From Verrucomicrobiota bacterium (lineage in GTDB: Bacteria > Verrucomicrobiota > Verrucomicrobiia > JAWXBN01), in contig JAWXBN010000005.1 of NCBI GenBank assembly GCA_034440155.1, positions 1 to 36,829 on the forward strand: a stretch of DNA of 36,829 nt, in the 5' to 3' direction. A model generated the notes under the pieces. That model did not search any database, was not told the origin of the DNA, and saw only the letters and a list, made by a program, of their open reading frames with translations. Both the position numbers and the translations under genes were made by a program. Position 1 is the stretch's first letter; the number at the start of each line of letters is the position of its first letter. Shown in pieces: positions 153-35,288 of this stretch.

Positions 153-620
153 TTAGATTCCCGCCCCACCAATCAATCGATCAGAAAAAACCTCTTCATT
201 TGTCACGACTCGTCCCTGGAAAACATGGGCGAGGGTGGCTTGATCCATCAGGTTTGCTACATAATTCCTGATATCAAGCATGACCCTGCGGAACCGGCAA
301 ACGGGCTCCTGAGAGCATCTCTCGTATCCGCTGAATGAGACACAACCAAGGGGAGCCAAAATACCATCAAAATGCCTGACGATCTCACCGAGAGCAATTT
401 GCTCAGGGGGTTTAGCTAGAATGTAGCCGCCCTTTGTTCCGGGGATACTGTCAGCCCAACCCTTGGACTTTAAATCCAGCATGATGTGTTCGAGAAAACG
501 TTTGGGTATATCATTACGTCTGGCCAATTCACGAATCGGGATCGGTTGTTTAGATTCGTAATACTCGACAAGAGTAAATATGGCTCTCAGTGCATAATCT
601 GTTTTTTTAGATAACTTCAT
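153..620 (-). CDS. Rrf2/IscR-family transcriptional regulator
   Basis: A 155-residue Rrf2 protein. The start at 620 (MKLSKKTDYALRA) is chosen because the Rrf2 winged-helix domain begins exactly there; an upstream in-frame ATG only adds 18 unrelated residues and runs through the promoter. The N-terminal half has the family pattern: KTDYALRA, PIRELARRNDIPKRFLEHI and GWADSIPGTKGGYILAKPP. Three cysteines (C93, C102, C108; spacing C-x8-C-x5-C) lie where IscR, NsrR and RsrR bind an Fe-S cluster, so a redox, NO or iron-responsive repressor is likely (family knowledge). The target is unknown. The desaturase gene lies 74 bases upstream on the same strand, and a palindrome in that gap suggests autoregulation. 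One GCAAWTTGC copy lies at 394-402. Confidence 0.85.
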   Translation of the reverse strand: MKLSKKTDYALRAIFTLVEYYESKQPIPIRELARRNDIPKRFLEHIMLDLKSKGWADSIPGTKGGYILAKPPEQIALGEIVRHFDGILAPLGCVSFSGYERCSQEPVCRFRRVMLDIRNYVANLMDQATLAHVFQGRVVTNEEVFSDRLIGGAGI

Positions 621-633
621 AATAACGACCAGT

Positions 634-662
634 CTTATCGTATATAAGAAAAATAAAGTCAA
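634..662 (-). promoter_or_regulatory. Candidate promoter and palindromic operator of the Rrf2 gene
   Basis: Reading the minus strand, TTGACT (662-657) is followed after 17 bases by GATAAG (639-634), a weak sigma-70-like pair. A perfect inverted repeat CTTAT-N5-ATAAG (634-648) overlaps the -10 position. An operator at this place would let the Rrf2 protein repress itself, as is common in the family. The site is short and in AT-rich DNA, so chance is possible. Confidence 0.3.
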
Positions 663-694
663 GCAGTCATTCAAAAAGATTAAACATAAAAAAG

Positions 695-1774
695 TCAGGC
701 TTCCGACTTGGCTTCCAGTAACACTGACTCGTCACCGGCAATTTCGTAGGTATCATTTTCAGGGAGTTTGGCGAAAAATGAGTAACCGGGTTCCTGTTTC
801 TGGCGTTTTAATACCGCAAATATGCCTTTCCATGTTTCAACCAATCCACGTGGGCTCGCGGGGAGGTGGGCTTCCAGCGCCGTGTGCAATTTGCCTAGAT
901 TATAACAGGGAACGGAAGGATACATGTGGTGCTCGATATGATAATTCATCCTCCAATAAAGAAAGCTGGGAAAGGGATGGAGGATAAAGGTACGGCAGCA
1001 GAGGCGGAAGTCTGGAACATTTGGCGGGAGGCCAACGTGTTGCGGAAAACCGACAAAAAAAGCCAACCAGCTCCCGATAAAGGGAGCAAGAGTCACAAGC
1101 ACGATTAATGGCCAGAGATGAAAATAGATGAAGGCACCCAAGAGCAGGGCATTTCCGATCAGGATGAACCGTGACCAGTCGGCGAGGTCCTTGCGGAGCT
1201 TTAGATTGCTCTCAGGCATGATGAGGGGTTCCCAAGTCCCCTGCAATTTGCCGAAGGCATAACGGAGATTTGTCAGGACAGAAACCCTGAGGAGGTAGGT
1301 ATTAAAGATGAAGCTATTAAACCATGTCATGGGATTAACCGTAATCGGCTGGATAATCTCCTGATCGAGATCGTCGTATGTCGTGTATTGATGGTGTTTG
1401 ACGTGGCTAGCGCGGTAGTGATGGTAATTCCAGATGGTCAGGAAAGAAACGATCCTGATGGCCATATCATTCAGCCAAGGGGTTTTAAATGTGGATTTGT
1501 GACTGAGCTCGTGGATCGCCGCCGATGGTCCGAGGAAAGTATAAAATGTCCCGTGGATATAACACAGCAGGGCCGTCACATACCATGGCCACTGGTACCA
1601 AGAGTAATAAGCTAGAGCACCAGTGCAAAACACCAAGGCCAAGTGCCCGCCAAATTGCCACCAACCTTTGGCGTCACTCCGTTTCATGAGTTCGCTCATG
1701 ATCTTTTTATCGACGGGCACACGGTGCCATTTGATTTGTTCTTTTTCCGTGGGGGTAGCAGGTGCTGTGCTCAT
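695..1774 (-). CDS. Membrane fatty-acid desaturase family protein
   Basis: A 359-residue integral membrane di-iron desaturase or hydroxylase. The three histidine boxes are present: HELSH (88-92), HHYRASHVKHH (118-128) and HIEHH (279-283), with an additional QHVG at about 245. Hydrophobic stretches at about 42-80, 105-117 and 202-242 fit the usual four-helix topology with the histidine boxes on the cytoplasmic side. Family members introduce double bonds into acyl chains or hydroxylate lipids or carotenoids; the substrate cannot be read from sequence. The ATG at 1774 has no obvious ribosome binding site. The gene sits 17 bases downstream of lysA on the same strand and probably shares its transcript. 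Two GCAAWTTGC copies (886-894, 1243-1251) each encode Lys-Leu. Confidence 0.85.
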   Translation of the reverse strand: MSTAPATPTEKEQIKWHRVPVDKKIMSELMKRSDAKGWWQFGGHLALVFCTGALAYYSWYQWPWYVTALLCYIHGTFYTFLGPSAAIHELSHKSTFKTPWLNDMAIRIVSFLTIWNYHHYRASHVKHHQYTTYDDLDQEIIQPITVNPMTWFNSFIFNTYLLRVSVLTNLRYAFGKLQGTWEPLIMPESNLKLRKDLADWSRFILIGNALLLGAFIYFHLWPLIVLVTLAPFIGSWLAFFVGFPQHVGLPPNVPDFRLCCRTFILHPFPSFLYWRMNYHIEHHMYPSVPCYNLGKLHTALEAHLPASPRGLVETWKGIFAVLKRQKQEPGYSFFAKLPENDTYEIAGDESVLLEAKSEA

Positions 1775-1791
1775 GATATAATATATTGTTA

Positions 1792-3078
1792 CTAGACTTT
1801 TTCGCCTTCGATTAAATCTTGGAAGCTTTGCCGAGTACGGATCACACGGGCTTTGCCTCCATCGACGAGGATTTCAGCGGGGAGGGGACGGGAGTTATAA
1901 TTCCCGCCCATGACAAAACCGTAGGCACCGGCACTCATGATCGAAAGTAATTCCCCCTCTTTTGGCGCGGGCAATTTGCGGTCGTGGGCAAAACAATCGC
2001 CACTCTCGCAGACAGGGCCGACGATATCGGCCACGACCTGTTTTGAGGAGGACTTTTTGACTGGGATAATCTCGTGGAAACTATCATAGAGAGCCGGGCG
2101 GATCAGATCATTCATGGCCGCATCAACGATGACGAAATTTTTAATCCCTGTCTTTTTGACGAATTGGACTTCTGTCAGGAGTACCCCGGCATTTCCGGCA
2201 ATAAAACGGCCGGGCTCAATCACGATTTTTACTCCGAGTGGTTTGAGCAGGGGAATCAAATGATCAGCGTATTCTTGTGGAGTCAGGAATTTTTTGGATT
2301 CCTTGCCCTTCCACCATTTCGGCTCAGCACTGGCCAGCGCGTGATCATAAACGATTTCGATCCCGCCGCCGATATCAAATGTTTTAAAGGTGGCATGTTT
2401 GCCTTTGAGGTCTTTGACCAAGGGAATGACTTTTTTGACGGCGGCGACAAAGGGTTTTACATCGCCGATGCGAGAGCCGATATGCATCTGCAGGCCGTAA
2501 ATCTCAATATGGGATAATTTTGCCGCATGGGCATAAACGGCGGGAACCTGCTCAAAAGCGATTCCAAATTTATTTTCATAAGTGCCCGTGGTGATTTTTT
2601 TATGTCCGCCGGCCTCGACATTAGGATTCACCCGGACAGCGATGCGGGCTTTTGTGCGCAATTTGCGTGCGACTTTATTTATCCTGTCGAGCTCGGGCAA
2701 GCTCTCGACATTAAAGCAGCCGATATCCCGTTTGAGTGCGTACTCGATTTCAGCTTCAGTTTTTCCGACCCCGGCAAAAACACATTTACGGACATCCCCG
2801 CCGGCTTTTTCGACACGGAAAATCTCCCCGGCACTCACGGTGTCAAATCCCCCGCCCAGTCGCGCAATTTGCTTCAAAAGCGCGAGATTAGAATTCGCCT
2901 TCATGGCGTAACAAACCTGGTGATCCAGAGGTGAAAGGGCTTTGTCTAATTTTTGATAATGGTCTTGGAAGGTCGCTAAAGAATATACGTAGAGCGGTGT
3001 GCCATGTTTTTTAGCCAGTGCGGCCAGAGAAACATTTTCACAATGGAGTACAGCGCCTTTATAACGGAATGAATGCAT
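1792..3078 (-). CDS. lysA: Diaminopimelate decarboxylase
   Basis: A 428-residue fold-type III PLP enzyme that decarboxylates meso-diaminopimelate to L-lysine, the last step of lysine synthesis. The PLP lysine is K60 in YAMKANSNLALL. The glycine-rich phosphate loop is at about 237-239 (DIGGGIEIVY), EPGR is at 288-291, and the active-site CESGD at 357-361 belongs to the second subunit's contribution in the dimer. Length and motif order match LysA rather than arginine or ornithine decarboxylases. argH lies 68 bases upstream on the same strand, so the two amino-acid genes may be co-transcribed. Three GCAAWTTGC copies lie in the gene (1971, 2658, 2864). Confidence 0.95.
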   Translation of the reverse strand: MHSFRYKGAVLHCENVSLAALAKKHGTPLYVYSLATFQDHYQKLDKALSPLDHQVCYAMKANSNLALLKQIARLGGGFDTVSAGEIFRVEKAGGDVRKCVFAGVGKTEAEIEYALKRDIGCFNVESLPELDRINKVARKLRTKARIAVRVNPNVEAGGHKKITTGTYENKFGIAFEQVPAVYAHAAKLSHIEIYGLQMHIGSRIGDVKPFVAAVKKVIPLVKDLKGKHATFKTFDIGGGIEIVYDHALASAEPKWWKGKESKKFLTPQEYADHLIPLLKPLGVKIVIEPGRFIAGNAGVLLTEVQFVKKTGIKNFVIVDAAMNDLIRPALYDSFHEIIPVKKSSSKQVVADIVGPVCESGDCFAHDRKLPAPKEGELLSIMSAGAYGFVMGGNYNSRPLPAEILVDGGKARVIRTRQSFQDLIEGEKV

Positions 3079-3146
3079 AGGGGCGCAATTTATAGCGTTC
3101 CTGCTGCAAATTGCAATCGCACTTTGAGAGCAAAAAGGAAGAAAGT

Positions 3147-4529: not shown

Positions 4530-4647
4530 AAGAAGCTTAATTTATCTTGAAAGACGGCTTTGAAAAGGTCTTTTTCGTTACTTTCTATAAAAAATATAAA
4601 AATAGTATTTTCAAGAGGCCGAGTAACGCTAAATTGCGGTTCCCTTT

Positions 4648-5337: not shown

Positions 5338-5339
5338 TT

Positions 5340-6683
5340 ATGGGAAAGAAGGAATCCCAAAGTTTTCGCTCAGTTTTAGCTGTCAATGATTTCAGGAATC
5401 TGTGGTTTGGCCAGATTATCTCCTCTGTCGGTGACCGATTTTACCAATTTGCCCTTCTGAGTATTATTTTTGGAATGGATGCCGGACAAAAAACAGGGCC
5501 AGAAGCCGCAAGGATTCTCTTTTTCAGCTTGTTACCGGCAGTCGTTTTTGGACCGTTTTTAGGAATCCTCTGTGACTGTTTTGATCGGAAAAAAATCATG
5601 ATTTTTTCGGATATCGTCAGGGCTGTTTTGGTTCTGACGATTCCTTTCATTTGGATTCAAACAGGTTCACTCGTGGGCGTGTACGGCATTCTATTCTTGA
5701 TGGGAACCATGTCTGCGGCTTTTATTCCGGCGCGACAATCAGCTTTACCTTCGCTTGTGGAGGCGAAGCACCTTGTCGTGGCAAACTCCCTTGCAGCCGC
5801 CGTCGGCGTCATCGCAAATTGCGTGGGTGTAACGATTAGTACGGTTTATACCGCTCTATTCCCGGCAGCAGCGGGTGCTTACAGTGGATTTATCATTAAT
5901 TCCCTGGCTCTTTTTTCGTCCGCGGTTTTTCTATGGAAAATCAAGACCGACCTGAAGCCCCTCCGTCATGAACACCCTTTTGAATCCGTCTGGAGTGAGT
6001 TAAAATTTGGGCTTAAAGCCATTATTGAAGACCGCCTGATCCTGACCATGACCGCGATTTTCGGGTTATTTGCTTTTGTGCTGGGACTCTTTGTGCCGAT
6101 TGTCCTGAGCTTCTTATCGGCTACTGGCGGGATTAATTATGAGGGTTGGCACGAATTAGTGATCCGTGGGACCGACCTGATTGAGGCCATTGGTTTTAAG
6201 CGCCCCACGATCCAGATGGAGAATCTGGCTCTTGGCATCTTGACCGCTGCAATGGCGGTCGGATTAGGGACTGGAATCATCCTTGTCGCCAAGAAAAAGA
6301 AAATCTCTCACGCATCAGCATTGCCTTACTTTAGTCTTTTAATGATGGGGGTTTTCTTCTGTGCCATGGCTAATACCCAGAGTTACACGGCACTCTTTGT
6401 GATTGTAATCCTGTTGGGATTTTTTACGGGCGGGGTGGTAATACCGATTGATACCCGTTTACAACTCCATGTCCCGGACAAATTGCGCGGACGTGTGTTT
6501 TCCGCCCGGCAAATGGTTTTTAATTCGATCCTACTCTTGGCCCAACTCTTTTTGATCACCGGCACACTCTTCTCCATTTTTGGTCCGGCGAACCTCCTTT
6601 TCGCTCTCGGGATCATGACTGTCAGTGTCTCAATCATCGCCTTTGTGGTGACGCCAAATAATTTGCGCAGTGGCCGGTTCTAA
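5340..6683 (+). CDS. Major facilitator superfamily transporter (MFS_3/EntS-like exporter)
   Basis: A 447-residue polytopic protein with about 12 hydrophobic segments. The opening, NDFRNLWFGQIISSVGDRFY, is typical of the MFS_3 exporter group related to the enterobactin exporter EntS and to macrolide-efflux proteins. The loop motif between helices 2 and 3 reads GILCDCFDRKKIMIFSD, the MFS 'G-x3-D-x2-R-R/K' signature. A loop of about 50 residues in the middle (around 258-310) is longer than usual. Substrate unknown; export is likely from the subfamily. It follows the unknown membrane protein by two bases. One GCAAWTTGC copy at 5814-5822 encodes Ala-Asn-Cys. Confidence 0.85.
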   Translation: MGKKESQSFRSVLAVNDFRNLWFGQIISSVGDRFYQFALLSIIFGMDAGQKTGPEAARILFFSLLPAVVFGPFLGILCDCFDRKKIMIFSDIVRAVLVLTIPFIWIQTGSLVGVYGILFLMGTMSAAFIPARQSALPSLVEAKHLVVANSLAAAVGVIANCVGVTISTVYTALFPAAAGAYSGFIINSLALFSSAVFLWKIKTDLKPLRHEHPFESVWSELKFGLKAIIEDRLILTMTAIFGLFAFVLGLFVPIVLSFLSATGGINYEGWHELVIRGTDLIEAIGFKRPTIQMENLALGILTAAMAVGLGTGIILVAKKKKISHASALPYFSLLMMGVFFCAMANTQSYTALFVIVILLGFFTGGVVIPIDTRLQLHVPDKLRGRVFSARQMVFNSILLLAQLFLITGTLFSIFGPANLLFALGIMTVSVSIIAFVVTPNNLRSGRF

Positions 6684-6840: not shown

Positions 6841-7167
6841 ATGTCACGAAAAAGAGGGACTTACAAGGCTAATGGTATGGGGAGTGGAAGATCCGGATCT
6901 TTACCATTGCTGGCTCACCATGATGATTTACTCAAGGTTATTACTGTAATTGCCGCAGGGGTTATACTCGTCTCTGCTTTAGCTTATGGATTCTTGGAGC
7001 TATATTGGCGTACTCCCATTCGTTTCCGTCATGGCCTTTTTCTTAAAGGGGTGCCTTTTCGCCAAGAAACCCTTATCGGAGCCGTTCACCGCTCCAATCA
7101 ACCACTCGTGTGGAATCTCATCATTGATACGGCGTTATTAAATCAAGGGGATATTAGGTTTTCCTGA
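6841..7167 (+). CDS. Hypothetical one-helix membrane protein
   Basis: A frame of 108 codons from the ATG at 6841 (MSRKRGTYKANG), which has a GTGAG directly upstream; an in-frame ATG at 6802 would add 13 residues. There is one strong hydrophobic helix at about 31-51 between a basic N-terminus and a C-terminal part (RTPIRFRHGLF through to DTALLNQGDIRFS) that would be extracytoplasmic. I recognise no family. The 3' end overlaps the end of the convergent hemH by 14 bases. Coding status is moderately supported by the clean helix and basic flank only. Confidence 0.5.
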   Translation: MSRKRGTYKANGMGSGRSGSLPLLAHHDDLLKVITVIAAGVILVSALAYGFLELYWRTPIRFRHGLFLKGVPFRQETLIGAVHRSNQPLVWNLIIDTALLNQGDIRFS

Positions 7168-8182
7168 CCAAATCGACAACAGCATCCACCCAGTCGTCGT
7201 TGCTATTCAGGCTGGGGATCAGTTGCAAGTCTTCACCCCCGGCGTGGGTGAACTCTTCTTTCCCACGAACGGCGATTTCTTCAAGAGTTTCTAAACAATC
7301 GCAGACAAATGAAAGGCAGAAGACCAGAAGCCGTTTTTTACCCTTTTTACCGAGTTCCTTAAAAACTTCGTCAGTGTAAGGTTTGATCCAAGGACTACTC
7401 CCGAGGCGGGATTGGAATGTGATTTTATATTGGTCCGGCGAGAGTCCTAGTTCACGGGCAATTTGCCGTGTAGTCTCAAAACATTGGGCCCGATAACAAA
7501 AACGGTTTGCATCGGAGATTTCTGCACAGCAGGTATCATCCCTCTTCAGGCAATATCCGGTTTGTCCTTCGCTCTTGGTAATATGGCGTTCGGGCAGTCC
7601 GTGATAACTGAAAACAAAGAAATCGGGTTTGAACTGCGCAATTTGCTCCCGCGCGCAATTTGCGTAGGCCGTGATAGTTTTTGGATCGTGGTAGAAGGGG
7701 GGGACGACTTTGACAAAAGGGGTATTCCAGAGGGAATTTACCACTTCTAATGCCCGCTGGATGGCGGAACCCGTCGATGAAGAGGCATATTGGGGAAAGA
7801 GCGGGAAAATGGTGAGTTCATCGACTCCGGTGGCAGCCAAGGCTTTGAGTTTTGATTCAATGGAGGGGGAGCCATATCTCATCGCATAGGCGACTGTGTA
7901 GTCGGGTAATTTTTCGGTGACTTTCCGGCAGAGGTCATCGGTGTGGAAGAGCAGGGGAGATCCCCGTTCCGTCCAGATGGTGGCATAAGCTTCGGCACTT
8001 TTTTTCGGGCGGAAAGGCAGGATAAAAAGATTCAGGAGAAACCAACGGCCCAATGGGGAAATGTCGATGACACGCGGGTCGGAGAGGAATTGCGCCAGAT
8101 AAGGACGGACTTTTTCAGCGGTGGGTGCTTCAGGAGTCCCGAGGTTAACCAAGAGCAGACCTTTTTTGCGGGGAGTATTCAT
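7154..8182 (-). CDS. hemH: Ferrochelatase
   Basis: A 342-residue ferrochelatase inserting iron into a porphyrin in the last steps of haem synthesis. The ATG at 8182 (MNTPRKKGLLLVNLGTPEAP) is chosen because the family begins here and it follows the trhO stop by one base. The catalytic histidine is H194 in FSYHGLPERH, the conserved glutamate E298 in CDCLETLEEI, and FQSRLGSSPWIKPYT (256-270) is the substrate-cleft motif. A cysteine-rich insertion (C211, C218, C219, C229, C234) follows the catalytic histidine, with C289, C294 and C296 near the C-terminus; some bacterial ferrochelatases hold an Fe-S cluster in this way. Three GCAAWTTGC copies occur, two of them only 8 bases apart (7638-7646, 7655-7663). 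Confidence 0.95.
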   Translation of the reverse strand: MNTPRKKGLLLVNLGTPEAPTAEKVRPYLAQFLSDPRVIDISPLGRWFLLNLFILPFRPKKSAEAYATIWTERGSPLLFHTDDLCRKVTEKLPDYTVAYAMRYGSPSIESKLKALAATGVDELTIFPLFPQYASSSTGSAIQRALEVVNSLWNTPFVKVVPPFYHDPKTITAYANCAREQIAQFKPDFFVFSYHGLPERHITKSEGQTGYCLKRDDTCCAEISDANRFCYRAQCFETTRQIARELGLSPDQYKITFQSRLGSSPWIKPYTDEVFKELGKKGKKRLLVFCLSFVCDCLETLEEIAVRGKEEFTHAGGEDLQLIPSLNSNDDWVDAVVDLVRKT

Positions 8183-8183
8183 A

Positions 8184-9937: not shown

Positions 9938-9950
9938 TCATTCAAAACTT

Positions 9951-11447
9951 ATGAAATATATCCTCTCCCTCGATCAAGGTACGACGAGTTCACGCGCCAT
10001 TATTTATGACGAGAATTTACACCAGGTGGCCGCTGTGCAAAAAGAATTCACCCAGTACTTTCCCCAAACTGGGTGGGTAGAACATGATCCGGAGGAAATT
10101 TGGGCATCAGTCCTTGCCACTGCCCGTGCTGCTGTAGCCAAGGCTATGATTAAACCCGGAGAGATCGCTGCGATCGGGATCACGAATCAGAGGGAGACAA
10201 TTGTCGTCTGGGAAAAGTCCACAGGCAAACCTGTTTATCCTGCGATTGTCTGGCAAGATCGCCGCACGAGTGAATACGTTGCCGCATTGAAGGAAGGCGA
10301 CAAAGAAAATCTTGTCCAGCAACGGACGGGATTACTTTTGGATCCCTATTTTTCCGCGAGTAAACTCCACTGGATCCTCCGTCAGATTCCTGACGGTCAT
10401 ACACGGGCGGAGGCTGGTGAACTCTCTGCGGGGACAATCGATAGTTGGCTCATCTCAAAGCTGACCGGTGGGAAAAGTCACATTACGGATGTGACAAACG
10501 CTTCGCGTACCATGCTGATGAATATCCGGACAGGTCAGTGGGATAAGGATTTGCTCGCCCTCTTCGACATCCCGCGCAATTTGTTGCCGGAAATCGTCTC
10601 CAGTAGTGGGGCTTTGGCCATGGCAGATGCTACCCATTTTGGCGAAAAAATCCCGATTTGTAGTGCGGTGGGAGACCAACAGTCCGCCCTTTTCGGGCAA
10701 TTATGTACGAAGCCCGGACTAGTCAAATGTACTTACGGGACGGGTTGTTTCATGCTTCTTTTTACCGGGACGGATGCGATCTCCAGTAGTAACCGTTTAT
10801 TGACCACTGTCGCCTGGCGCTTGGGCAACGAGCCGATGCAATATGCGCTGGAAGGAAGTGTCTTTATGGGAGGGGCCTCCATTCAATGGTTACGGGACGG
10901 GCTGGGGATTATTAAAACGGCACCGGAGGTTAATGATCTTGCGGGCAGTGTGAATGATAGTGGCGGGGTGATTCTCGTGCCCGCTTTCACGGGGCTCGGG
11001 GCTCCGTACTGGGACCCTTCCGCGCGGGGGACTTTGTTAGGTTTGAGTCGGGGAACCACCGCCGCACATATTGCACGGGCGACCCTCGACGGCATTGCAT
11101 TCCAAGTTGCCGATTTATTGATCTCCATGGAAAGGGATAGTGGCCGGCGGATATCCATTCTCCGTGTGGATGGTGGGGCTTCGGCGAGCAATTTGCTCAT
11201 CCAGACCCAATCCGATTTATTAGGAACGACGGTGGAGCGCCCGATAAATATCGAGAGCACGGCTCTCGGTGCAGCTATGATGGCAGGCCTCGGGGCAGGG
11301 ATTTGGCCGGATATTGATTTCCTCACTCAAATCCGCGAGGTGGACCGCAAATTTACCCCAAATATTACTGCCAAAGAACGAAGGGCGCGGATGAAAATAT
11401 GGAAAAAAGCGGTGAAACGTGCACAAGGATGGGAAACTAATTTATGA
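9951..11447 (+). CDS. glpK: Glycerol kinase
   Basis: A 498-residue FGGY-family kinase that phosphorylates glycerol to sn-glycerol 3-phosphate, trapping it after entry through GlpF. The N-terminus SLDQGTTSSRAIIYD is the ATP phosphate-binding loop. ITNQRETIVVW and AIVWQDRRT are glycerol-kinase signatures, GDQQSALFGQ holds the catalytic-site aspartate, and GTGCFMLL and GGASIQWLRDGL are ADP-binding elements. It is a full-length protein. It overlaps glpD by four bases (ATGA), implying translational coupling. A GCAAWTTGC copy at 11188-11196 encodes Asn-Leu-Leu; it is the last perfect copy before a 9.9-kb gap. Confidence 0.97.
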   Translation: MKYILSLDQGTTSSRAIIYDENLHQVAAVQKEFTQYFPQTGWVEHDPEEIWASVLATARAAVAKAMIKPGEIAAIGITNQRETIVVWEKSTGKPVYPAIVWQDRRTSEYVAALKEGDKENLVQQRTGLLLDPYFSASKLHWILRQIPDGHTRAEAGELSAGTIDSWLISKLTGGKSHITDVTNASRTMLMNIRTGQWDKDLLALFDIPRNLLPEIVSSSGALAMADATHFGEKIPICSAVGDQQSALFGQLCTKPGLVKCTYGTGCFMLLFTGTDAISSSNRLLTTVAWRLGNEPMQYALEGSVFMGGASIQWLRDGLGIIKTAPEVNDLAGSVNDSGGVILVPAFTGLGAPYWDPSARGTLLGLSRGTTAAHIARATLDGIAFQVADLLISMERDSGRRISILRVDGGASASNLLIQTQSDLLGTTVERPINIESTALGAAMMAGLGAGIWPDIDFLTQIREVDRKFTPNITAKERRARMKIWKKAVKRAQGWETNL

Positions 11448-22340: not shown

Positions 22341-22928
22341 TCAAGGCTTAGTATTCATATTCTCAAGGAATTTAATTTCATGGTCTAGCAGTGGGGCTGC
22401 ATTCACCAGTTTGGCTCTCAGCGCCTGAGTGATAAGTTTCTGGAGCGAATATTCCCCTTGCGCAATTTGCTCTTTGATCAGGGGTAGAAGCGATTTTGGG
22501 TATATCGCACAAAGAGGTTCATAAAATCCATCATGAGAATATACAAAACCTGTTCCTGATTCTAGAGCAACTTGCGCGAGCGTTTTTTGAAGGAAAGGCA
22601 GTGTGAGTGCCACGATATCCACCGCGAGCAGGAATAAGTATTGTGTCTGGCATTCTCCCAGTAAGCACCTGATTCCTTCAATAGGACCAAGGGTTTCCAC
22701 CTCGTCAAAAACAAGTTTCCTATCTTTGTCCGCGGGAAGGTTTTGTTTGGGCCGGCATGAAACGAGGATTTCTTTTGCACCTAAACCTTTTACCAGCGCA
22801 ATTTGTTTGTCTAAAAGTGTTTGGCCGTTAACAGGGAATAAGGCTTTGTCTTGTCCGAACCGGGTGGAGTAGCCTCCGGCAATGATTCCTGCACTAAAAC
22901 GGATTTTTTCTTTGGGATCAATTTGCAT
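22341..22928 (-). CDS. mobA: Molybdenum cofactor guanylyltransferase
   Basis: A 195-residue nucleotidyltransferase of the MobA type, which attaches GMP to molybdopterin. The N-terminal AGIIAGGYSTRFGQDKAL (13-30) is the G-loop with the catalytic Arg and Lys. FDEVETLGPIEGI and LAVDIVAL (the metal-binding aspartate) follow in the correct order, and YEPLCAIYP is the family's C-terminal block. Full length. A MOSC-domain gene lies 20 bases upstream on the same strand, supporting a role in molybdoenzyme maturation. One GCAAWTTGC copy (22462-22470) encodes Gln-Ile-Ala. Confidence 0.88.
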   Translation of the reverse strand: MQIDPKEKIRFSAGIIAGGYSTRFGQDKALFPVNGQTLLDKQIALVKGLGAKEILVSCRPKQNLPADKDRKLVFDEVETLGPIEGIRCLLGECQTQYLFLLAVDIVALTLPFLQKTLAQVALESGTGFVYSHDGFYEPLCAIYPKSLLPLIKEQIAQGEYSLQKLITQALRAKLVNAAPLLDHEIKFLENMNTKP

Positions 22929-23534: not shown

Positions 23535-26246
23535 ATGGCTGGTTGTTGTTCAAATCCAAATACTGATCTTCAGGGAGAATTGAATGAGGAGAGTTCATCT
23601 GCCTTATCAAATTCTTCCCGTTCCATGCAATGGTTTCGTATCGGGGTTGCTCTTTTGGTTTCAGGACAAGCCATGGTATTCAGTCTTGCCGTGAATATCT
23701 CCCCGCCCACAGGCTCGGTTCGCCTGATTATCCACGGGATTCTGGCTTTATCGGCTCTTGTCGTCATTTTGGTGGCGGGTCTCCCGATCATCCGGCTGTC
23801 TTTTACTGCATTGTTTAAAAAGAAAATCGTAGTTGAGCAACTTTTCCTTCTCGGCATTATCGGGGCCTTTTGTGGCTCCCTCCAGTCTACTCTCACTGGT
23901 GTGGGAGGAATCTATTATGAAGTCGTCGCTATCCTTGTGGCGATTTATTCATTTAATACCCTTTTGTCCGAGGGGCGTCGCCAGAAATCAATCTCTTCCG
24001 CCCGTGCCTTCCGTGCGCAATTTGCCCAATGTCGGGTGGTTACCTGTTGTGGTTCAATCAAAGAAAAGCCAGTGAAGGAAGTCGAGATAGGGGATAAAAT
24101 CAGGGTTTCTATGGGTGAAGGTATCCCTGTCGATGGAGTAGTGCGCGAAGGAATTGCGTTTGTACAGGAAACCGGCATGACTGGGGAACCTTACCCAGTG
24201 GTCAAACGGGAAGGGGATGCTGTTCTGGCTGGAACAATTTGCGTGGACAATTCACTGACCATTGAAGCAACCAAAGACGGAAGTCACCGCGAGCTCGACA
24301 GTCTCTTGAAAATCGTCGAGGAAGCCCGCTTTAAACCTTCGGGAATACAGTCGATGGCTGACCGGATGGTCTCATGGTTTTTGCCGGTGGTGACGGCTTG
24401 CTCGATTGTCGCTTTTGCCGGTTGGACATTTTTGGGGCAGTGGGAAGTCGGGCTCTTTAATGCGATGGCTGTGCTGATTGTGGCTTGCCCTTGTGCAATG
24501 GGGCTCGCGACACCCATCGGCCTATGGAGTGCGATCGCCGCCTTGGCCAAACGCGGGCTGATCCTACACACGGGGGAATTCATCGAGAGGATTGCCGCCA
24601 TTGATACGGTTGTTTTTGATAAGACCGGCACTCTCAGTGATGAAAAACTCCAGGTCGAAGAAGTCATCGTCGATGACGGGCTCGACCGTGAAGAAGTTCT
24701 TGGCCTGATCCATTTTGTCGAGAGCCATTCTAACCACCCTATCGCTAAAGCATTCCAATCCCTCGTAACAACCCTGGATACTTCTGGATTCAGGCTTTTG
24801 AAAATGGATGCCTTGCCTGGCCAAGGAATTGAGGCGTCTATCGAGGATTCCGCAGGAAGAGGGGTATCTTTAGTCATTGGGAATAACAATTTGCTACACA
24901 CAGACCAAAAGCCCGCAGCTGATCTGCTCACACAGAAACGTTATTCGAGCACGGAAAGTCCACTTGTTTTAAATGTCCTCATCAATCAAAAACTCGTTTC
25001 CCTGATTTATTTACGTGAAGCCGCTCGCAACGAGTCCAAGGAGGTTACCGGCTACTTGCACCGGGCGGGTATCCGCACCGTGATCATGTCCGGGGATAAA
25101 GAAGAAAACGTCCGTAAACTGAGTTTGGGTGCCGATGAGATACAGGGAGGTTTAACTCCCCAAGAAAAGGCAGATAGGATAAAGGCATTACAGGATTCGG
25201 GTAAAAAAGTCCTTTTTGTCGGTGATGGGGCTAATGATGCACCAGCCCTTTCGATTGCCTACTCCAGTATTGCCATGGGTAGTGGCACTTCCTTGGCGCA
25301 TGAGTCCGCCCAAGCCACCCTTTTCGGGGGCAATTTGCTCCATGTTATTGATGCCATTTGTTTAAGCCGCCTGGTCATCCGCCGGATCCGCTCAAATATC
25401 CTGTTTGCCTTTTTTTATAATATTATCGGTATATCCCTAGCGATGCTCGGACTGATCCATCCCGTCTTGGCAGCCATTCTCATGCTCATTTCCAGTGCCA
25501 CAGTCAGTTGGCGGGCATTCCGGCTTGGCGAAAAAATCCAAGAGGGTGACCTCGGCCGTTTCCGTAATCTACTCTCGCAGACCGATACGATTCCCTTTGA
25601 AAGCGAGGGACTCGTTCCTTTGATTAAAGAAATGGTTTTCCGTGAAAAGACAGCTTCTGTCCTTGCTCTTTGTGTCGCGTTACAAGGCCCGTTTTTATCT
25701 TACTTAGCACGCCTGGATTTTCAATCAGGTGTCTTGGTGACATTTGTTTTTGTTTTAATAGCCATCGTAGGATTTATTTTCTGTATCCGTCCGGGTGCGA
25801 CCTATACTTTGCGAGCTTGTTATGGCATGTTAGCACTCGGTAATCTCGCTATGATAGCCGGATGGTGGGCAGATGCCGGTTTCGGAGCGATTGTCCGTGA
25901 CGGGATATGCCTTTGTGCTTGTGAGAAATCAATACTGGGTAAAGGTCTCCTGTCGCATATTAACCTCATGCATATTGGGATGATTGCTGGGGGAATACCG
26001 GGTATGGCCTATGGGAACTCTATCCTGCCTAAAGCCTACGAAAGCGTGTTTATAAAATATGCCCATTTACTGACCTGTCTGGTCGGCATGTATATCGGGA
26101 TGATGCTCGGAGCGTTGGTCATGGCACAATTCAAAGTGGGGGATCCTCACCTCTATGTTGTGTGCAGCTTTTTTGCCATGACGATCGGGATGCTCTTGGG
26201 CATGATCCTTGTCTGCGTGACTTGGTTTAAACTTAATAAGGATTAG
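23535..26246 (+). CDS. Copper-type P1B ATPase with a C-terminal membrane extension
   Basis: A 903-residue heavy-metal P-type ATPase. Actuator loop TGEP (216-219), metal-binding membrane motif CPC (318-320), phosphorylation site DKTGT (362-366), the P1B-specific HP (401-402) and hinge GDGANDAP (563-570) are all intact, so it should be active; CPC suits Cu(I) or Ag(I). There is no N-terminal HMA domain, only MAGCCSNP. The core ends near residue 665. Residues about 671-903 form an extra region with about six hydrophobic segments, rich in Met, Gly, Cys and His (CLCAC at 792-796, HINLMHIGM at 808-816). I know no such standard extension. The divergent MOSC gene starts 100 bases away, and the ResB gene follows after 10 bases. 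Confidence 0.93.
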   Translation: MAGCCSNPNTDLQGELNEESSSALSNSSRSMQWFRIGVALLVSGQAMVFSLAVNISPPTGSVRLIIHGILALSALVVILVAGLPIIRLSFTALFKKKIVVEQLFLLGIIGAFCGSLQSTLTGVGGIYYEVVAILVAIYSFNTLLSEGRRQKSISSARAFRAQFAQCRVVTCCGSIKEKPVKEVEIGDKIRVSMGEGIPVDGVVREGIAFVQETGMTGEPYPVVKREGDAVLAGTICVDNSLTIEATKDGSHRELDSLLKIVEEARFKPSGIQSMADRMVSWFLPVVTACSIVAFAGWTFLGQWEVGLFNAMAVLIVACPCAMGLATPIGLWSAIAALAKRGLILHTGEFIERIAAIDTVVFDKTGTLSDEKLQVEEVIVDDGLDREEVLGLIHFVESHSNHPIAKAFQSLVTTLDTSGFRLLKMDALPGQGIEASIEDSAGRGVSLVIGNNNLLHTDQKPAADLLTQKRYSSTESPLVLNVLINQKLVSLIYLREAARNESKEVTGYLHRAGIRTVIMSGDKEENVRKLSLGADEIQGGLTPQEKADRIKALQDSGKKVLFVGDGANDAPALSIAYSSIAMGSGTSLAHESAQATLFGGNLLHVIDAICLSRLVIRRIRSNILFAFFYNIIGISLAMLGLIHPVLAAILMLISSATVSWRAFRLGEKIQEGDLGRFRNLLSQTDTIPFESEGLVPLIKEMVFREKTASVLALCVALQGPFLSYLARLDFQSGVLVTFVFVLIAIVGFIFCIRPGATYTLRACYGMLALGNLAMIAGWWADAGFGAIVRDGICLCACEKSILGKGLLSHINLMHIGMIAGGIPGMAYGNSILPKAYESVFIKYAHLLTCLVGMYIGMMLGALVMAQFKVGDPHLYVVCSFFAMTIGMLLGMILVCVTWFKLNKD

Positions 26247-26256
26247 GATTCATCTG

Positions 26257-28194: not shown

Positions 28195-29876
28195 TGAAAC
28201 GATTTTTTTCTCTATTACCCGCCTTACTCCTCTTTTTACCCGTATGGTTAAGTGCTCAAGTTGATCCAACGACATTAGACGGGCTCGTTATCCAATCAGG
28301 CGGACGCCAGAAACCATTCGGTGTTTTCACAGCCGAAACCCTCCAGTCATTGACCGGTAAAAAGGAATTCAAACCCAGTTTCTCAGAAAAAATACTTCCT
28401 GCCGGTGAGGTTCTTTTGGAAATCTGGTTTAATCCACAAAAATGGTCCAAGGAAGAAATCATCCTCGTGGACTACCAGCCCTTACGCAAATTGCTCGGGA
28501 TGGATGGGAAAAAGAAATTAGCCTCTTTCGAGTCGATAGTCTCAAATCAGGAATTTGTGAGAGCCTTTGAGAGCCTGCAAAAACAGAAACGCCAAAAACC
28601 CAATGATAAACTCGACCCCCTACAAAAGGATGTAGAGTCGGTTTCAGGCCGTTTGCATATTTTTGAAGGGCTTGTGTCAGGTGATGCGTACCGGGTGATT
28701 CCTCCTGCGCCGAACGGGAGTATCGAGTTTATCCCCGTGCAGTTACTAGGTTCTGCCTACCAGAAGGAACAGGCATTGCCTGTGGCGGAAGCCTTTGACC
28801 AGATGAGGTCGGCATACCTAAAAAATGATCCTTCTGAATTTAAGGTGGCTGCTACCCGGTTTAAAGAGCTTGCCGGAGGAATTAACCCCGCAGCGAGTAT
28901 TAGCCCGTGGAAAGTGCATTTAGAGAATTTTTATTTTAAATTCCATCCTTTCCGCTGGGCTTGGATCGCTTATTTGGGGGCATTTGTTTCCTTGCTGGCG
29001 ATTATGAATCAGAAAAAGGGTTATCGGATTGCTTGGGCACTGGTATTGACGGGCTTATTGCTCCAAATATCCGGATTTGTCATGCGTATTATTATTTCGG
29101 AGAGGGCGCCGGTGACAAATATGTATGAGACAGTCATCTGGTTATCCTTTGGTGTCTCGATTTTTGCTATTATCCTCGAGTGGAAATATCGCTGTCGTTA
29201 TTATCTGCTTGGTGCTTTACCCGTCTCTATTTTATCTCTTTTACTCGCGGACTCCCTGCCGAATGTCTTGAATGACTCGATACGGCCTTTGATGCCCGTG
29301 CTCCAGCATAATTTCTGGCTTACTGTGCATGTGCTGATGATCACATCTTCTTATGCAGCATTTGCCCTCGCTTTGGGAGTGGCCCATATTATTCTCGGAA
29401 AAGTCCTCTTCTCAAAAAAACATACTATTGAGGCCTCACTCTATAATTACCTCTATAAAACCATTCAGATCGGGGTTTTATTGTTAGCCATCGGTACGAT
29501 TCTTGGTGGTGTCTGGGCAAATTATTCTTGGGGCCGCTTCTGGGATTGGGATCCGAAAGAAACTTGGGCATTGGTGGCCTTTATGAGTTACTTATTTATC
29601 TTGCATGGACGGATTGCCGGTTGGTGGGGTGGTTTTGGATTGGCCATCGGTTCGGTGATTGGATTCATGGCTATTCTTATGGCTTGGTATGGGGTTAATT
29701 TTGTTTTGGGGGTAGGGCTGCACAGTTATGGATTTGGTGCGGGCGGTATTGAGTACGCACTAGCTTTTGTAATTGCTGAATTGATTTTTGCGGGGGCCGC
29801 ACTCTATACTTACACAAAAATCAAAACCCAAACACGCACGCACGACAAAGCCCTAGATGCAGTGGATAAAAACTAA
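28191..29876 (+). CDS. CcsA/ResC-like cytochrome c biogenesis protein with N-terminal periplasmic domain
   Basis: A 561-residue protein. It has a signal peptide (1-22, FFSLLPALLLFLPVWLSAQ), an extracytoplasmic region of about 230 residues, then a polytopic part from about 255. The haem-handling WWD motif is WGRFWDWDPKETW (447-459), with conserved histidines at 380 (WLTVHVLMITSSYAA) and in GLHSYGFG near the end. This is the CcsA core preceded by an extra domain, an arrangement common in Bacteroidetes and PVC bacteria. It overlaps ResB by four bases and the PHP gene by one base. One GCAAWTTGC copy lies at 28486-28494 (Lys-Leu). Confidence 0.88.
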   Translation: MMKRFFSLLPALLLFLPVWLSAQVDPTTLDGLVIQSGGRQKPFGVFTAETLQSLTGKKEFKPSFSEKILPAGEVLLEIWFNPQKWSKEEIILVDYQPLRKLLGMDGKKKLASFESIVSNQEFVRAFESLQKQKRQKPNDKLDPLQKDVESVSGRLHIFEGLVSGDAYRVIPPAPNGSIEFIPVQLLGSAYQKEQALPVAEAFDQMRSAYLKNDPSEFKVAATRFKELAGGINPAASISPWKVHLENFYFKFHPFRWAWIAYLGAFVSLLAIMNQKKGYRIAWALVLTGLLLQISGFVMRIIISERAPVTNMYETVIWLSFGVSIFAIILEWKYRCRYYLLGALPVSILSLLLADSLPNVLNDSIRPLMPVLQHNFWLTVHVLMITSSYAAFALALGVAHIILGKVLFSKKHTIEASLYNYLYKTIQIGVLLLAIGTILGGVWANYSWGRFWDWDPKETWALVAFMSYLFILHGRIAGWWGGFGLAIGSVIGFMAILMAWYGVNFVLGVGLHSYGFGAGGIEYALAFVIAELIFAGAALYTYTKIKTQTRTHDKALDAVDKN

Positions 29877-30706: not shown

Positions 30707-30743
30707 GCTTAAAATTCCTTATCCTGAACTACTAGAAATAATC

Positions 30744-30768: not shown

Positions 30769-30776
30769 TTGATATC

Positions 30777-31730
30777 TCAAGCCAAAGACAGATTCCGGAT
30801 GGGTTGCCACGAGACGTCGAGGTTTTTGATTTCCATGACGAGGTCTTTGAGTGGCCAGACGGAGATTTTAACCCCGCCGGTTTTCATCCGTACAATGTGC
30901 CCACCGCAATTCGAACCAGTTTCAAAACCGTGGATATGGAGGGGATGAGTAGCTACTGAGATAATATTTTGGACCGTTGGGTTTGCGGCGTATATCCCGC
31001 CGACACTCCATTGTCCGGGGCCGTATTCAGCGAGTTTAAGGTTATTTTTGGCATTGTAGCCGTCGGTGAGTTTGAGTCCTTCTAAGGGAAGGTAAAAAGC
31101 CGTTGCATAGCTGACAAAGTCGAATGGTCCATTCACGTGGACTGCGGCCAAACCGATATTAGATTCAATCATTTTTTCTTGGATCCATTCGTGGAGATGG
31201 TCTGTCTCGGGGGTTTCCCATGTCTGAACGGTAGAGGGATCACAGACCGCTGCCGCGAGGAATGGAAATGTAGGAATATCGCCGTTTTCGCCCAAGGAAG
31301 GGGTTTGAAGCACCGGACCTGATTCAGAAGGGCGTTGCCGTGTGATATCGATAATGTGCATGGGGGAAACCCCCTCCGGATCAGACCAATAAACCTTCGG
31401 TTCACCGACAGTCCCTTGGATAATGATTTCCCCATTTCGCTTGAACCAATTAGTCGTTCCTATCCCGATCAGAGGCCAGTCTTTTGGATAAACGGAGATC
31501 TCATTGGCCACACTTTTCCATTGTACCGTATGGAAAAAATCGCCCAACAGGAGGCGTTCAACCGTGTTATATGAAAAGAGTGAGGCTCGGAGCGATGTCA
31601 TCGGGGTCATGAAGGAAATGGATACCTCGAAGGCCTCTTTTTGGCTACATCTTTTTCTCGTTTTATCCAGATGACTTACCATCACAAACTCCCTCCCGGT
31701 AAGTGCCCAAAGCAATTTGCCCATGCGCAT
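30777..31730 (-). CDS. Acetolactate decarboxylase-like protein
   Basis: A 317-residue protein whose C-terminal half shows the alpha-acetolactate decarboxylase metal site: H265-x-H267-x10-H278 (LHIHGFETGSNCGGHIV), the same spacing as 'HLHF ... GGHV' in the known enzymes. Upstream, IGIGTTNWFKRNGEIIIQG matches 'GLGTF-x-LDGE', VHVNGPFDFV matches the 'I-x-G-x-F' strand, and SVGGIYA corresponds to 'vGf'. The fold is therefore likely the same, but the protein is longer and diverged, so the substrate may not be acetolactate. No acetolactate synthase or butanediol gene is nearby. The start is uncertain: ATG 31730 or 31724, or a TTG at 31751. A GCAAWTTGC copy lies at 31712-31720, inside the first codons. 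Confidence 0.6.
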   Translation of the reverse strand: MRMGKLLWALTGREFVMVSHLDKTRKRCSQKEAFEVSISFMTPMTSLRASLFSYNTVERLLLGDFFHTVQWKSVANEISVYPKDWPLIGIGTTNWFKRNGEIIIQGTVGEPKVYWSDPEGVSPMHIIDITRQRPSESGPVLQTPSLGENGDIPTFPFLAAAVCDPSTVQTWETPETDHLHEWIQEKMIESNIGLAAVHVNGPFDFVSYATAFYLPLEGLKLTDGYNAKNNLKLAEYGPGQWSVGGIYAANPTVQNIISVATHPLHIHGFETGSNCGGHIVRMKTGGVKISVWPLKDLVMEIKNLDVSWQPIRNLSLA

Positions 31731-31751
31731 ACGGAAAGCCAGGCCTGACAA

Positions 31752-32795: not shown

Positions 32796-32819
32796 GGGAT
32801 ACTTTATTCTGGGAGATTT

Positions 32820-33950
32820 ATGAAAAAAACAGATCGGATAGACGGGAGATTCATGCGGCAGGCCCTGAATTTAGCCATGAAAGGGGCTGGCACCGTTTCC
32901 CCAAATCCGATGGTGGGGGCTGTGATTGTTAAAGCAGGGAAAATAATCGGGAAAGGTTACCACCAAAAAGCAGGTCTTGCCCATGCGGAGGTTAATGCCG
33001 TCCGGGACGCCAAAGCACGAAAAGCAAATTGCGCGGGGGCCACGATTTATGTAACCCTGGAGCCTTGTTCTTCAATTGGCCGCACCGCACCTTGCACCGA
33101 TTTAATTATTCGTGAGCAATTTGCGCGGGTGGTCATCGGATGTCTCGATCCTGATAAGCGGCATGCAGGAAAAGGGTTCGCAATCCTCGGGAATGCTGGG
33201 ATACAAGTAGATGCCGGATGTTTGGAGGATGAGTGTCTGGCCCTTAACCGCATTTTCTTTACTCATAAAATCCTCAAACGCCCGTATTTCATTGGAAAAA
33301 TCGCCCTGACTAAGGACGACAAAATCAATGGGCACCCCGGTAAATGGATCACCACAGCTCTTTCCCGAAAACACGCCCATTATTTAAGATTCCAGACTGA
33401 TGCCGTTATGGTGGGGGCCGGAACTGTTCTTGCGGATAACCCTTCACTCACCCTCCGACACGGTTACGATTCTAAGGGTAAGGAGCAACCCTGGCGTATT
33501 ATCCTTGATTCAAAAGGACTCGTGCCAGCCACGAGCAAATTGCTCTCGGATGAATTCCGCAATAAAACGCTCCATCTCAGCGGAAAATCATTTCCCAAAC
33601 AAAAAGGCCGATTGGTCCCGCAGCAAATTGCACGGTGGCTGGCCGGTAAAAATATTTCCTCTTGTCTGATTGAAGGCGGGGTAAAGGTGCTGGAATCCTT
33701 TTTTAAAGCGGGATTGATTGATGAATTCTACCTCTACGAATCGACCACGGTTAAGTCAGTGGATTCAAATTCCCTAGATGGGCGCAAATTGCTGCGTTAT
33801 CTCGGGAGGCAGAGCTACAGGGTAGAGTCTCGGGGCGCAAAGTCTCGGGATCGCTTGACCCGTTACATTTCATCATCGTCACAGGCGTTATTACGGACGA
33901 TTTCAGCTAAACGTCGCCGCCGTGCGGCTGTGCTTCCTAAAAGGAAATAG
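32820..33950 (+). CDS. ribD: Bifunctional riboflavin deaminase/reductase
   Basis: A 376-residue enzyme for the second and third steps of riboflavin synthesis. The deaminase domain (about 1-145) has zinc ligands in HAE (55-57) and PCSSIGRTAPC (82-92; the usual 'PCSH' histidine is serine here). The reductase domain (about 150-350) has KIALTKDDKINGHPGKW, DAVMVGAGTVLADNPSLTLR and LIEGGVKVLESFF. A GGGAG ribosome binding site lies five bases before the ATG. The last 29 codons, rich in Arg and Ser, lie antisense to the C-terminus of the next gene and are probably an extension past the domain. Five GCAAWTTGC copies fall in this gene, the densest run in the window. Confidence 0.94.
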   Translation: MKKTDRIDGRFMRQALNLAMKGAGTVSPNPMVGAVIVKAGKIIGKGYHQKAGLAHAEVNAVRDAKARKANCAGATIYVTLEPCSSIGRTAPCTDLIIREQFARVVIGCLDPDKRHAGKGFAILGNAGIQVDAGCLEDECLALNRIFFTHKILKRPYFIGKIALTKDDKINGHPGKWITTALSRKHAHYLRFQTDAVMVGAGTVLADNPSLTLRHGYDSKGKEQPWRIILDSKGLVPATSKLLSDEFRNKTLHLSGKSFPKQKGRLVPQQIARWLAGKNISSCLIEGGVKVLESFFKAGLIDEFYLYESTTVKSVDSNSLDGRKLLRYLGRQSYRVESRGAKSRDRLTRYISSSSQALLRTISAKRRRRAAVLPKRK

Positions 33951-34708
33951 ATACCGTAAACCAGAAGGAAAATAAGCTGGATATCGATCAGGAAAAAGCG
34001 GACCCAAAAATAGATTGAGCAGATGAGTAGTGCAGGGATAGTCGCACAACATGATATTTTTGAAATCTGACTGATTGTCAGGAAAGAACCGGTCAGTTTC
34101 TCAAGGGCAAATGTGCTCCCGATAAAAAATAGATTAATAAAGAAGCCGTAGAAGAGGATCATGAACCCGACAAAAAAAAGGCCAAAAACGAAGATGATCA
34201 TCTTTAGGCTGGCTGAGAGGTAGTCCTCGACATATTTGGCATTGATCCGGCCATCCGGCAGATGCTTGAAGGTAATCTCTTGTTTCGCGGGGAAAGGGCC
34301 TTTGAGTGCCTCCATCTGGATGCCTTGGGAAGCTACGGCGAAGGTCATTGAAAGATTTGAGGACGTGATCGTAGGATAATTTGTCGAGGAAGTGTCAATG
34401 ACCAGCTCATAGGGTTCACTCCCGCCAGTAGCTGCCTCGATTTTACCCTTATAGATAAAAGGGGTTGTGGATTCCGAAGAGAGGACTCCCGCTTTTATGG
34501 TCAGAGGTGGGAGGGTTTTTTCGACCCAAGCACCACTTTCCTCTGCGATTTGTTTGGCAAACGGAATCATGCTGAGGGCATTGGCCACGATGATGATGAT
34601 AATAAAGCGGAAGAGTAACCAAAAGATTTGACCGAATGAATGGTCGATGACTTTCGCATAAAAGCTCATTGTACTGAGACTTTGGAGAATAGAGATGAAT
34701 AAGGGCAT
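33863..34708 (-). CDS. DUF1189-like membrane protein
   Basis: A 281-residue protein from ATG 34708, ten bases after the def stop; an ATG at 34744 inside def would add 12 residues. It has an N-terminal helix (about 28-50), an extracytoplasmic beta-rich domain (about 60-165, with PFIYKGKI and YELVIDTSST reminiscent of DUF1189's 'iDTTg') and a block of three or four helices at about 165-262. The tail AARRRRLAEIVRN is basic. The role is unknown; in the family these are predicted membrane proteins without assigned function. Its 3' end overlaps ribD by 88 bases in convergent orientation, which is unusually long. Confidence 0.6.
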   Translation of the reverse strand: MPLFISILQSLSTMSFYAKVIDHSFGQIFWLLFRFIIIIIVANALSMIPFAKQIAEESGAWVEKTLPPLTIKAGVLSSESTTPFIYKGKIEAATGGSEPYELVIDTSSTNYPTITSSNLSMTFAVASQGIQMEALKGPFPAKQEITFKHLPDGRINAKYVEDYLSASLKMIIFVFGLFFVGFMILFYGFFINLFFIGSTFALEKLTGSFLTISQISKISCCATIPALLICSIYFWVRFFLIDIQLIFLLVYGIYFLLGSTAARRRRLAEIVRNNACDDDEM

Positions 34709-34718
34709 GGATAAAACT

Positions 34719-35288
34719 TTAGTCTTTAAGTCCGAGTTCTGCACGGGTTTGTTTCAGCAATTTGCGTATGGAGGGTTTGGCCTTTTCTTTGTCACGCTGG
34801 ATCATGCGGTCGATAAAAAGGATCCCATTCAAGTGGTCCACCTCGTGCTGGATCGCACGGGCCAAAAGGCCAGCAGCCCTAAAATGCAGGATGGATCCGT
34901 CGAGTTTGGAGGCTTTGACCTCGGCAACTGGCGCGCGCAGGATATTACCACCGATTTCTGGGAAACTCAGACATCCTTCCGTCCCGCTTTCGAGTTCACC
35001 AGAGGGTTTGATGACGGGATTAATCAGGATCAGGGGCATATAATCCTCAGGATCCACTTCGACACCGGAGAACCACATTTTAGAAGGCCGATCCGCCCCT
35101 GAAATATCCACCACGGCCATTTGCAAAGCTTGATTTACCTGTTGGGCTGCCAAACCGACCCCCGCAGCATGATACATGGTATCGAGCATGTCGTCAGCGA
35201 ACTCGTGGATTTCGGGGGTGATTTTAGTGATTTTTTTACCCTTCTGCCACAAGACAGGATGCCCGTACCTGACGATCTCAAGAATCAT
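34719..35288 (-). CDS. def: Peptide deformylase
   Basis: A 189-residue metalloenzyme that removes the formyl group from new proteins. All three motifs are complete: GVGLAAQQV (43-51), EGCLSFPEI (104-112, metal ligand C106) and QHEVDHLNG (147-155, H148 and H152 ligands, E149 catalytic). The start codon overlaps the exbD stop as TAATG, so translation is coupled to the exbD message, with a GAGG about 7 bases upstream inside exbD. One GCAAWTTGC copy (34757-34765) encodes Lys-Leu. Confidence 0.96.
   Translation of the reverse strand: MILEIVRYGHPVLWQKGKKITKITPEIHEFADDMLDTMYHAAGVGLAAQQVNQALQMAVVDISGADRPSKMWFSGVEVDPEDYMPLILINPVIKPSGELESGTEGCLSFPEIGGNILRAPVAEVKASKLDGSILHFRAAGLLARAIQHEVDHLNGILFIDRMIQRDKEKAKPSIRKLLKQTRAELGLKD

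Follow-up and report, generated by a model that had tools for sequence, protein, structure and literature searches.

GCAAWTTGC, a highly iterated palindrome in the genome of a Verrucomicrobiota bacterium and a possible DNA uptake word

GCAAWTTGC is iterated genome-wide

The 9-mer GCAAWTTGC is a genuine, genome-wide highly iterated palindrome in the Verrucomicrobiota bacterium of assembly GCA_034440155.1. The stretch analyzed here (the window; 36,829 nt, positions 1 to 36,829 of contig JAWXBN010000005.1) carries 25 perfect sites between positions 394 and 34765, the same number and the same span as had been reported in an earlier inspection of the bare sequence (hereafter the sequence-only reading). 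That reading had put the chance expectation at about 0.3 copies. Dinucleotide shuffles of the window contain 0.66 copies on average and 4 at most; none of the 100 shuffles attains 25, and the observed number is far above chance. The whole genome (2.76 Mb in 132 contigs, 97.17% complete, about 3% being unseen) contains 1,522 sites in 2,763,229 bases vs 7 for the reversed word, i.e., approximately 0.55 per kb or one site per 1.8 kb. The proposed count against a Markov model was carried out on a 928-kb sample of this genome and is far from the expectation: 495 sites are present vs 6.3 expected (order-3 model, sites masked), an excess of about 80-fold, and scaling this expectation to the complete genome yields only some 19 sites. 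Indeed, GCAAATTGC is the top over-represented 9-mer of the genome sample (z 159). A larger sample, of 1.22 Mb, holds 668 perfect sites.

The word is not comparably frequent elsewhere. The comparison covered 386 other genomes, of which 383 belong to the same class and 3 were reached via LysA-matching loci, none of them recorded as nearer to the window's genome than the same class. No more than 165 sites occur in any of them, the maximum being that of G066 (4.3 Mb); the nearest records were possibly left out of the LysA search. The three best LysA matches (59–62% identity) are Verrucomicrobiota records, so that, as far as one gene can tell, the host is not cyanobacterial, unlike the carriers of HIP1, the highly iterated palindrome of cyanobacteria. 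Scanning genome contigs with LysA gave 30 loci, none near enough for a comparison of sites.

To our knowledge, iterated words this strong are known from few lineages, namely those with HIP1, with the DNA uptake sequences (DUS) of Neisseriaceae and with the uptake signal sequences (USS) of Pasteurellaceae. Chi sites are likewise short over-represented words; however, they are asymmetric, one-directional and far less over-represented, whereas GCAAWTTGC is a palindrome in ~80-fold excess. The statement that the word is neither HIP1 nor a known uptake word is borne out; the top 9-mer GCAAATTGC matches neither GCGATCGC, which is HIP1, nor the alternate HIPs listed in PMC4390886. Another dispersed palindrome from a non-cyanobacterium, the 18-bp repeat of Caldithrix abyssi, is reported to occur in 38 exact copies (PMC5317091). 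Thirteen of these coincide in part with predicted coding sequences, which the authors consider misannotated; GCAAWTTGC, with its 1,522 mostly genic copies, is unlike this repeat. No description of GCAAWTTGC or of its relatives was found in the open literature (subscription papers and preprints being outside the scope), the one paper that matched being unrelated to judge by its title and abstract, and within these bounds the word appears undescribed, as had been supposed. By title and abstract, the literature on iterated or over-represented palindromes comprised only work on HIP1 and cyanobacteria, the Caldithrix genome and unrelated topics, while a search on novel uptake words returned nothing.

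Structure of the extended site

The full site is a symmetric dyad of approximately 21 bp, roughly CCC-N-GM-GCAAWTTGC-KC-N-GGG, with one spacer base. The length of the spacer in the core (GCAA-W-TTGC) is fixed: a single centre base of any kind is found in 538 sites, compared with 6 without a spacer, 7 with two spacer bases and 4 with three. The flanks were profiled on the 494 of 495 sites whose flanks are complete, with both strands pooled. Position ±5 is K in 71% of the cases (T 37%, G 34%), C at +6 (G at −6) reaches 65%, and G is enriched at +8, +9, and +10 (38, 41, and 34%), after which conservation fades near ±10. When sites are oriented by their centre base, as could be done for 667 of 668, the two sides agree at each position (C at 6: 0.66/0.62; G at 9: 0.43/0.39), so that the dyad symmetry is real. 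The flank dinucleotides of the two sides are approximately independent of each other (GC/GC 26 observed vs 25.8 expected; TC/TC 24 vs 28.7). The GAG…CTC and GCG…CGC extensions noted previously do reflect a prolongation of the palindrome, here traced symmetrically to about ±10, but they describe it incompletely and, given this independence, do not form two separate classes. Codons are not the cause of the flanks, which are kept in intergenic spacers as well and, by and large, whatever the reading frame of the site, although the 36 sites in frame 0 show them more weakly.

Words differing from the core by one base are also enriched, in a position-dependent manner. In the genome sample, the centre tolerates C or G (43 sites vs 2.6 expected) and the first base tolerates A (79 vs 6.4), whereas the AA/TT part is strict, with 2 to 12 copies of its mismatch words as tabulated for the A side. 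All seven tabulated one-mismatch classes retain the flank conservation, which is weakest next to the changed outer base; this indicates either that recognition is graded or that these words are stages in the gain and loss of sites. By comparison, ACAAWTTGT, which has two mismatches and 18 copies, shows hardly any flank conservation (C at +6, 0.28). In the 1.22-Mb sample, one-mismatch and perfect words stand at 716 to 668, a ratio of 1.07 with chance words counted in. In DUS and USS, too, the core is over-represented, the flanks are weaker and words with one mismatch are enriched; the corresponding ratios in two Neisseria genomes are 1.15 and 1.45 (PMC3630211).

Placement of the sites in genes and spacers

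According to gene calls made within this analysis by a hexamer-based procedure, 406 of the 495 sites lie fully in genes, 3 extend across gene ends and 86 are intergenic, corresponding to 0.51 per kb of genic and 0.68 per kb of intergenic sequence. The in-gene sites are distributed over the three frames as 36/193/177, vs 3.1/9.5/26.6 after shuffling of synonymous codons within genes (406 vs about 39 in all). The word is thus not a by-product of codon choice, and an origin from codon usage or from amino-acid pairs such as Lys-Leu and Gln-Ile-Ala, which had been named as the finding that might refute its significance, is ruled out. The presence of copies in all three frames and in genes of unrelated function (in the window lysA, hemH, glpK, metG, and ribD) is likewise confirmed. 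Density rises with GC content over five classes, from 0.31 per kb in the class richest in AT to 0.80 in that richest in GC, while the expectation is flat.

Usable alignments with homologues were available for 102 sites. At the codons of the site, identity is 0.283; it is 0.352 over the 10 codons flanking them on each side and 0.399 elsewhere, the difference between near and far positions being −0.047 before any control. For the same peptides encoded without the word (592 places), the corresponding values are 0.347, 0.379, and 0.394. With this control subtracted, site minus far is −0.069 (95% interval −0.118 to −0.017) and near minus far −0.032 (−0.064 to −0.001). By this comparison, the sites occupy somewhat less conserved stretches of proteins, but the effect is modest and in part due to the type of peptide, so that permissive placement is only just discernible. 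The gap fractions at sites and in the background are 0.057/0.037 (n = 44), 0.037/0.040 (n = 73, motif residues only) and 0.047/0.034 (n = 102) in three counts, and only 4 of the 102 sites have gaps in the majority of their alignments. Since most sites are ungapped relative to homologues, they are likely to have arisen by substitution rather than by insertion.

The longest run devoid of sites is an entire contig (C27, 18.4 kb, 0 sites; P 0.005 by simulation), in which a type III-B CRISPR cluster of Cmr2, Cmr3, and Cmr4 (stretch L031; Cmr3 below its cut-off) is found together with a WYL-domain regulator.

A possible uptake word for natural transformation

Of the roles offered by the sequence-only reading, which also named a methyltransferase target and a nucleoid-protein site, that of an uptake word fits best. 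We tentatively favor GCAAWTTGC, with its weaker symmetric flanks, as a self-recognition word for natural transformation, because the literature on Neisseria uptake sequences (PMC2397512, PMC3630211) describes the same combination of iteration, flanks, graded variants and permissive placement. The lower density in AT-rich DNA and the lack of sites on contig C27 also count in favor of this reading. DUS and USS share with it a strong core surrounded by weaker flanks, a density of about 0.5 per kb, a one-mismatch ratio near 1 and a somewhat permissive placement; Neisseria uptake sequences are reported to occupy permissive regions (PMC2397512). In addition, genes for a pilus and for ComEC are present in the window's genome.

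The search for com genes that had been suggested thus yielded candidates. ComEC is present with three Pfam domains (DUF4131, Competence and Lactamase_B), and a DprA homologue (40% identity) contains two GCAAWTTGC sites inside the matched stretch. Six PilT-family ATPases score over the cut-off (L022 8848-11312, L054 11260-13513, L060 240-1301, and contig C98 28731-29753, two tandem pairs among them) and four further matches lie below it. In one Gram-negative species that has been studied, deletion of comEC, pilQ or pilT renders transformation undetectable (PMC8897410); the parts found here are therefore consistent with competence, although they are no proof of it. As a separate observation on pilus-like genes, two adjacent prepilin-like genes at L017 12059-13378 share an identical N-terminus of 45 residues.

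The model that we propose starts from what is observed in this genome, that is, from the iteration, specificity and symmetry of the word, its mostly gap-free and somewhat permissive placement, the presence of ComEC, DprA and PilT-family proteins and the lack of any DNA methyltransferase match by five Pfam families (see below). The bacterium would be competent, and the DNA-binding part of its type IV pilus uptake machine would act as a receptor favoring DNA that bears the dyad. Such DNA would enter more often and recombine at the homologous place; by this sequence-biased uptake, biased conversion would drive new and near-match sites through the population, up to approximately one per 1.8 kb, and most of those that persist would be at places where the protein or spacer can accommodate them. 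With somewhat greater reserve, we suggest that this could be a palindromic uptake word read by a symmetric (dimeric) receptor in a Verrucomicrobiota-like lineage, which would add another independent origin of sequence-biased transformation to those of Neisseriaceae and Pasteurellaceae, for the first time with a palindromic signal. If the word does serve uptake, sequence-biased sex has evolved at least once more, and with a different geometry.

Several results weigh against this assignment. The known uptake words are not palindromic (PMC1939737), so that a palindromic one would be a first; furthermore, GCAAWTTGC differs from DUS and USS in being known here from sequence alone. The score of ComEC is below the NCBIfam equivalog cut-off (119 vs 190), and in the 44% genome sample no match to E. 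coli HofQ or HofM was obtained, in what is an insensitive test, nor was a pilus secretin identified. Although Neisseria words favor the core genome, no such preference is seen here: genes with a homologue are no denser in sites than the others (0.49 vs 0.51 per kb), in a comparison set so small that the genes scored as lacking a homologue are probably for the most part false negatives. The difference between the site and its immediate neighborhood is no larger than in the peptide control (−0.037, 95% interval −0.090 to 0.018). A site-free run at L006 9933-20000 resembles ordinary core genes, presumably metabolic ones as named by us from their N-termini, and absence of sites therefore does not imply foreign DNA. 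Finally, spacers between convergent genes initially appeared enriched (19 sites, 0.90 vs 0.52 per kb), but this excess is not significant once repeats and gaps of more than 1 kb are excluded (18/59, P 0.12).

Other explanations of the iteration

A symmetric dyad of ~21 bp with a fixed one-base spacer, repeated across the sampled contigs, is also what a binding site might look like for an abundant chromosome-organizing or partition protein, such as a nucleoid protein or an SMC-loader-like factor. We regard this putative role as possible but doubtful. The 91 close pairs of sites show no helical phasing and spacers between divergent genes are not enriched (0.54 per kb); moreover, selection of about 1,500 separate 9-bp sites despite their coding cost would presumably need more than a benefit from binding.

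Alternatively, a repair or recombination enzyme could convert near-matches into the word by a biased process that is independent of methylation, the word itself having no function. The conserved flanks of the seven one-mismatch classes are as expected for precursors or decay products, and the occurrence of sites in every frame and in spacers of a genome in which no DNA methyltransferase was found by five Pfam families is compatible with it as well. On the other hand, we know of no enzyme that converts near-match sites without a mark or a template, and the long, symmetric, graded flanks rather resemble those bound by a protein dimer. This explanation seems to us somewhat improbable.

In the cyanobacteria, HIP1 has been linked to methyltransferases (PMC4390886), and the word studied here could similarly be the product of a sequence-specific DNA methyltransferase that also maintains it, for instance through the methylation-directed mismatch repair proposed by Elhai for cyanobacteria. 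The likeness is considerable: HIP1 and the alternate HIPs are iterated palindromes found in genes and spacers at a similar density, with palindromic extensions and with many outer-base changes among their one-off words (PMC4390886), and GCAAWTTGC, at ~0.5 per kb, has the same appearance. MutS is also present in the window's genome. However, PF01555, PF00145, PF02086, and PF02384 have no match in this 97%-complete genome, whereas the same searches match in 11, 10, 4, and 13 of 14 control genomes, respectively. The sole match to the fifth family, PF07669, is below the cut-off and corresponds to PrmC. The pattern [DNS]PP[YFW] has 8 matches among the 1,008 gene calls of the 44% sample; the two examined match PF03602/PF05175 and PF05175, which are not DNA-methyltransferase families. 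Furthermore, the one-off words vary here at the centre base besides the outer bases, unlike those of HIP1, from which GCAAWTTGC also differs in its sequence, its odd centre, its lack of GC-richness and in having one known carrier, which belongs to a different phylum. Because no DNA methyltransferase is matched by the five Pfam families in the approximately 97% of the genome that is covered, a word made by methylation is unlikely, and the methyltransferase target and the orphan methyltransferase envisaged by the sequence-only reading are disfavored accordingly. A strong iterated word in an unrelated phylum and in such a genome separates iteration from methylation and provides an independent case for testing the drivers of iterated words. 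Independently of GCAAWTTGC, and though no DNA methyltransferase is matched by these families, the GC-rich hexanucleotide palindromes GGCGCC, GCCGGC, GTCGAC, GGGCCC, and CGGCCG, as well as CCAGG, are ~2- to 3-fold under-represented in the genome sample.

It is very improbable that the sites are what is left of a small mobile element or of a REP-type repeat. A separate dispersed repeat (core GTGTAGGGCGA) has a copy within 200 bp of 22 of the 668 sites, and two of the three gap counts slightly exceed the background. However, the third does not, and an insertion would leave gaps at most sites, not at 4 of 102 in the majority of alignments; conservation stops near ±10 and 406 of 495 sites are inside genes, so that insertion is largely refuted.

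The sites of the window

Of the 25 sites of the window, to which no strand is assigned, 24 lie within predicted genes. Three precede lysA: 394..402 (GCAATTTGC) in the open reading frame (ORF) 153-674 (−), and 886..894 and 1243..1251 in ORF 695-1774 (−), which has a weak, below-cut-off match to desaturases/hydroxylases. The lysA gene (1792-3078, −) contains 1971..1979, 2658..2666, and 2864..2872, and it is followed by the sole intergenic site, 3106..3114, in the spacer between the predicted lysA and argH ORFs. An MFS-like ORF (5340-6683, +; match below cut-offs) has 5814..5822; hemH (7154-8221, −) has 7458..7466, 7638..7646, and 7655..7663, the last two being 17 bp apart; and glpK (9951-11447, +) has 11188..11196. 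Further downstream, 21136..21144 and 21233..21241 fall in metG (20757-22301, −), 22462..22470 in a mobA-like ORF (22341-22928, −; match below cut-off), 24017..24025 and 25330..25338 in an ORF for a heavy-metal P-type ATPase (23535-26246, +), 28486..28494 in a ccsB-like ORF (28191-29876, +; match below cut-off) and 31712..31720 in ORF 30777-31751 (−). The assignments of 394, 1243, 3106, and 31712 are based on the motif count and the ORF list. Five sites are found in ribD (32820-33950, +), at 33024..33032, 33116..33124, 33535..33543, 33623..33631, and 33784..33792, and the last one, 34757..34765, lies in a peptide deformylase ORF (34719-35288, −). The packing in ribD can be compared with that of an 8-oxoguanine glycosylase-like gene elsewhere (L266 6177-7085), in which six sites occupy 0.9 kb.

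Other iterated words and repeats

No iterated palindrome of comparable strength was seen in relatives, as judged from the top five 8-mers of 20 genomes sampled at no more than 20 kb each (L095 and L105 gave no words) and from 400 kb of G363. Two words are mildly outstanding in genomes of the same class: TTGGCCAA, with 6 sites in 20 kb (L102, genome G268), and TTTGCAAA, with 5 sites in 20 kb (L097, genome G171). In L109, a non-palindromic 8-mer occurs 14 times (0.9 expected) and 12-mers are repeated 7 times, which suggests a repetitive gene. A scan of viral contigs for close pairs of GCAAWTTGC yielded at least 120 stretches. Among the 15 densest of 120 loci, only L210 has more than 2 sites, which belong to a 37-bp unit repeated in tandem; among the matches listed, L140, L154, and L183 have two close pairs each. 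Finally, the window's genome contains a dispersed repeat whose core GTGTAGGGCGA is followed by roughly SCGGCCC...TTGCC. It is present in 24 copies in 928 kb, among others in L042, L045, L040, and L020, and four copies are spaced ~180 bp apart in L045 (1577-2121, reverse-strand numbering).

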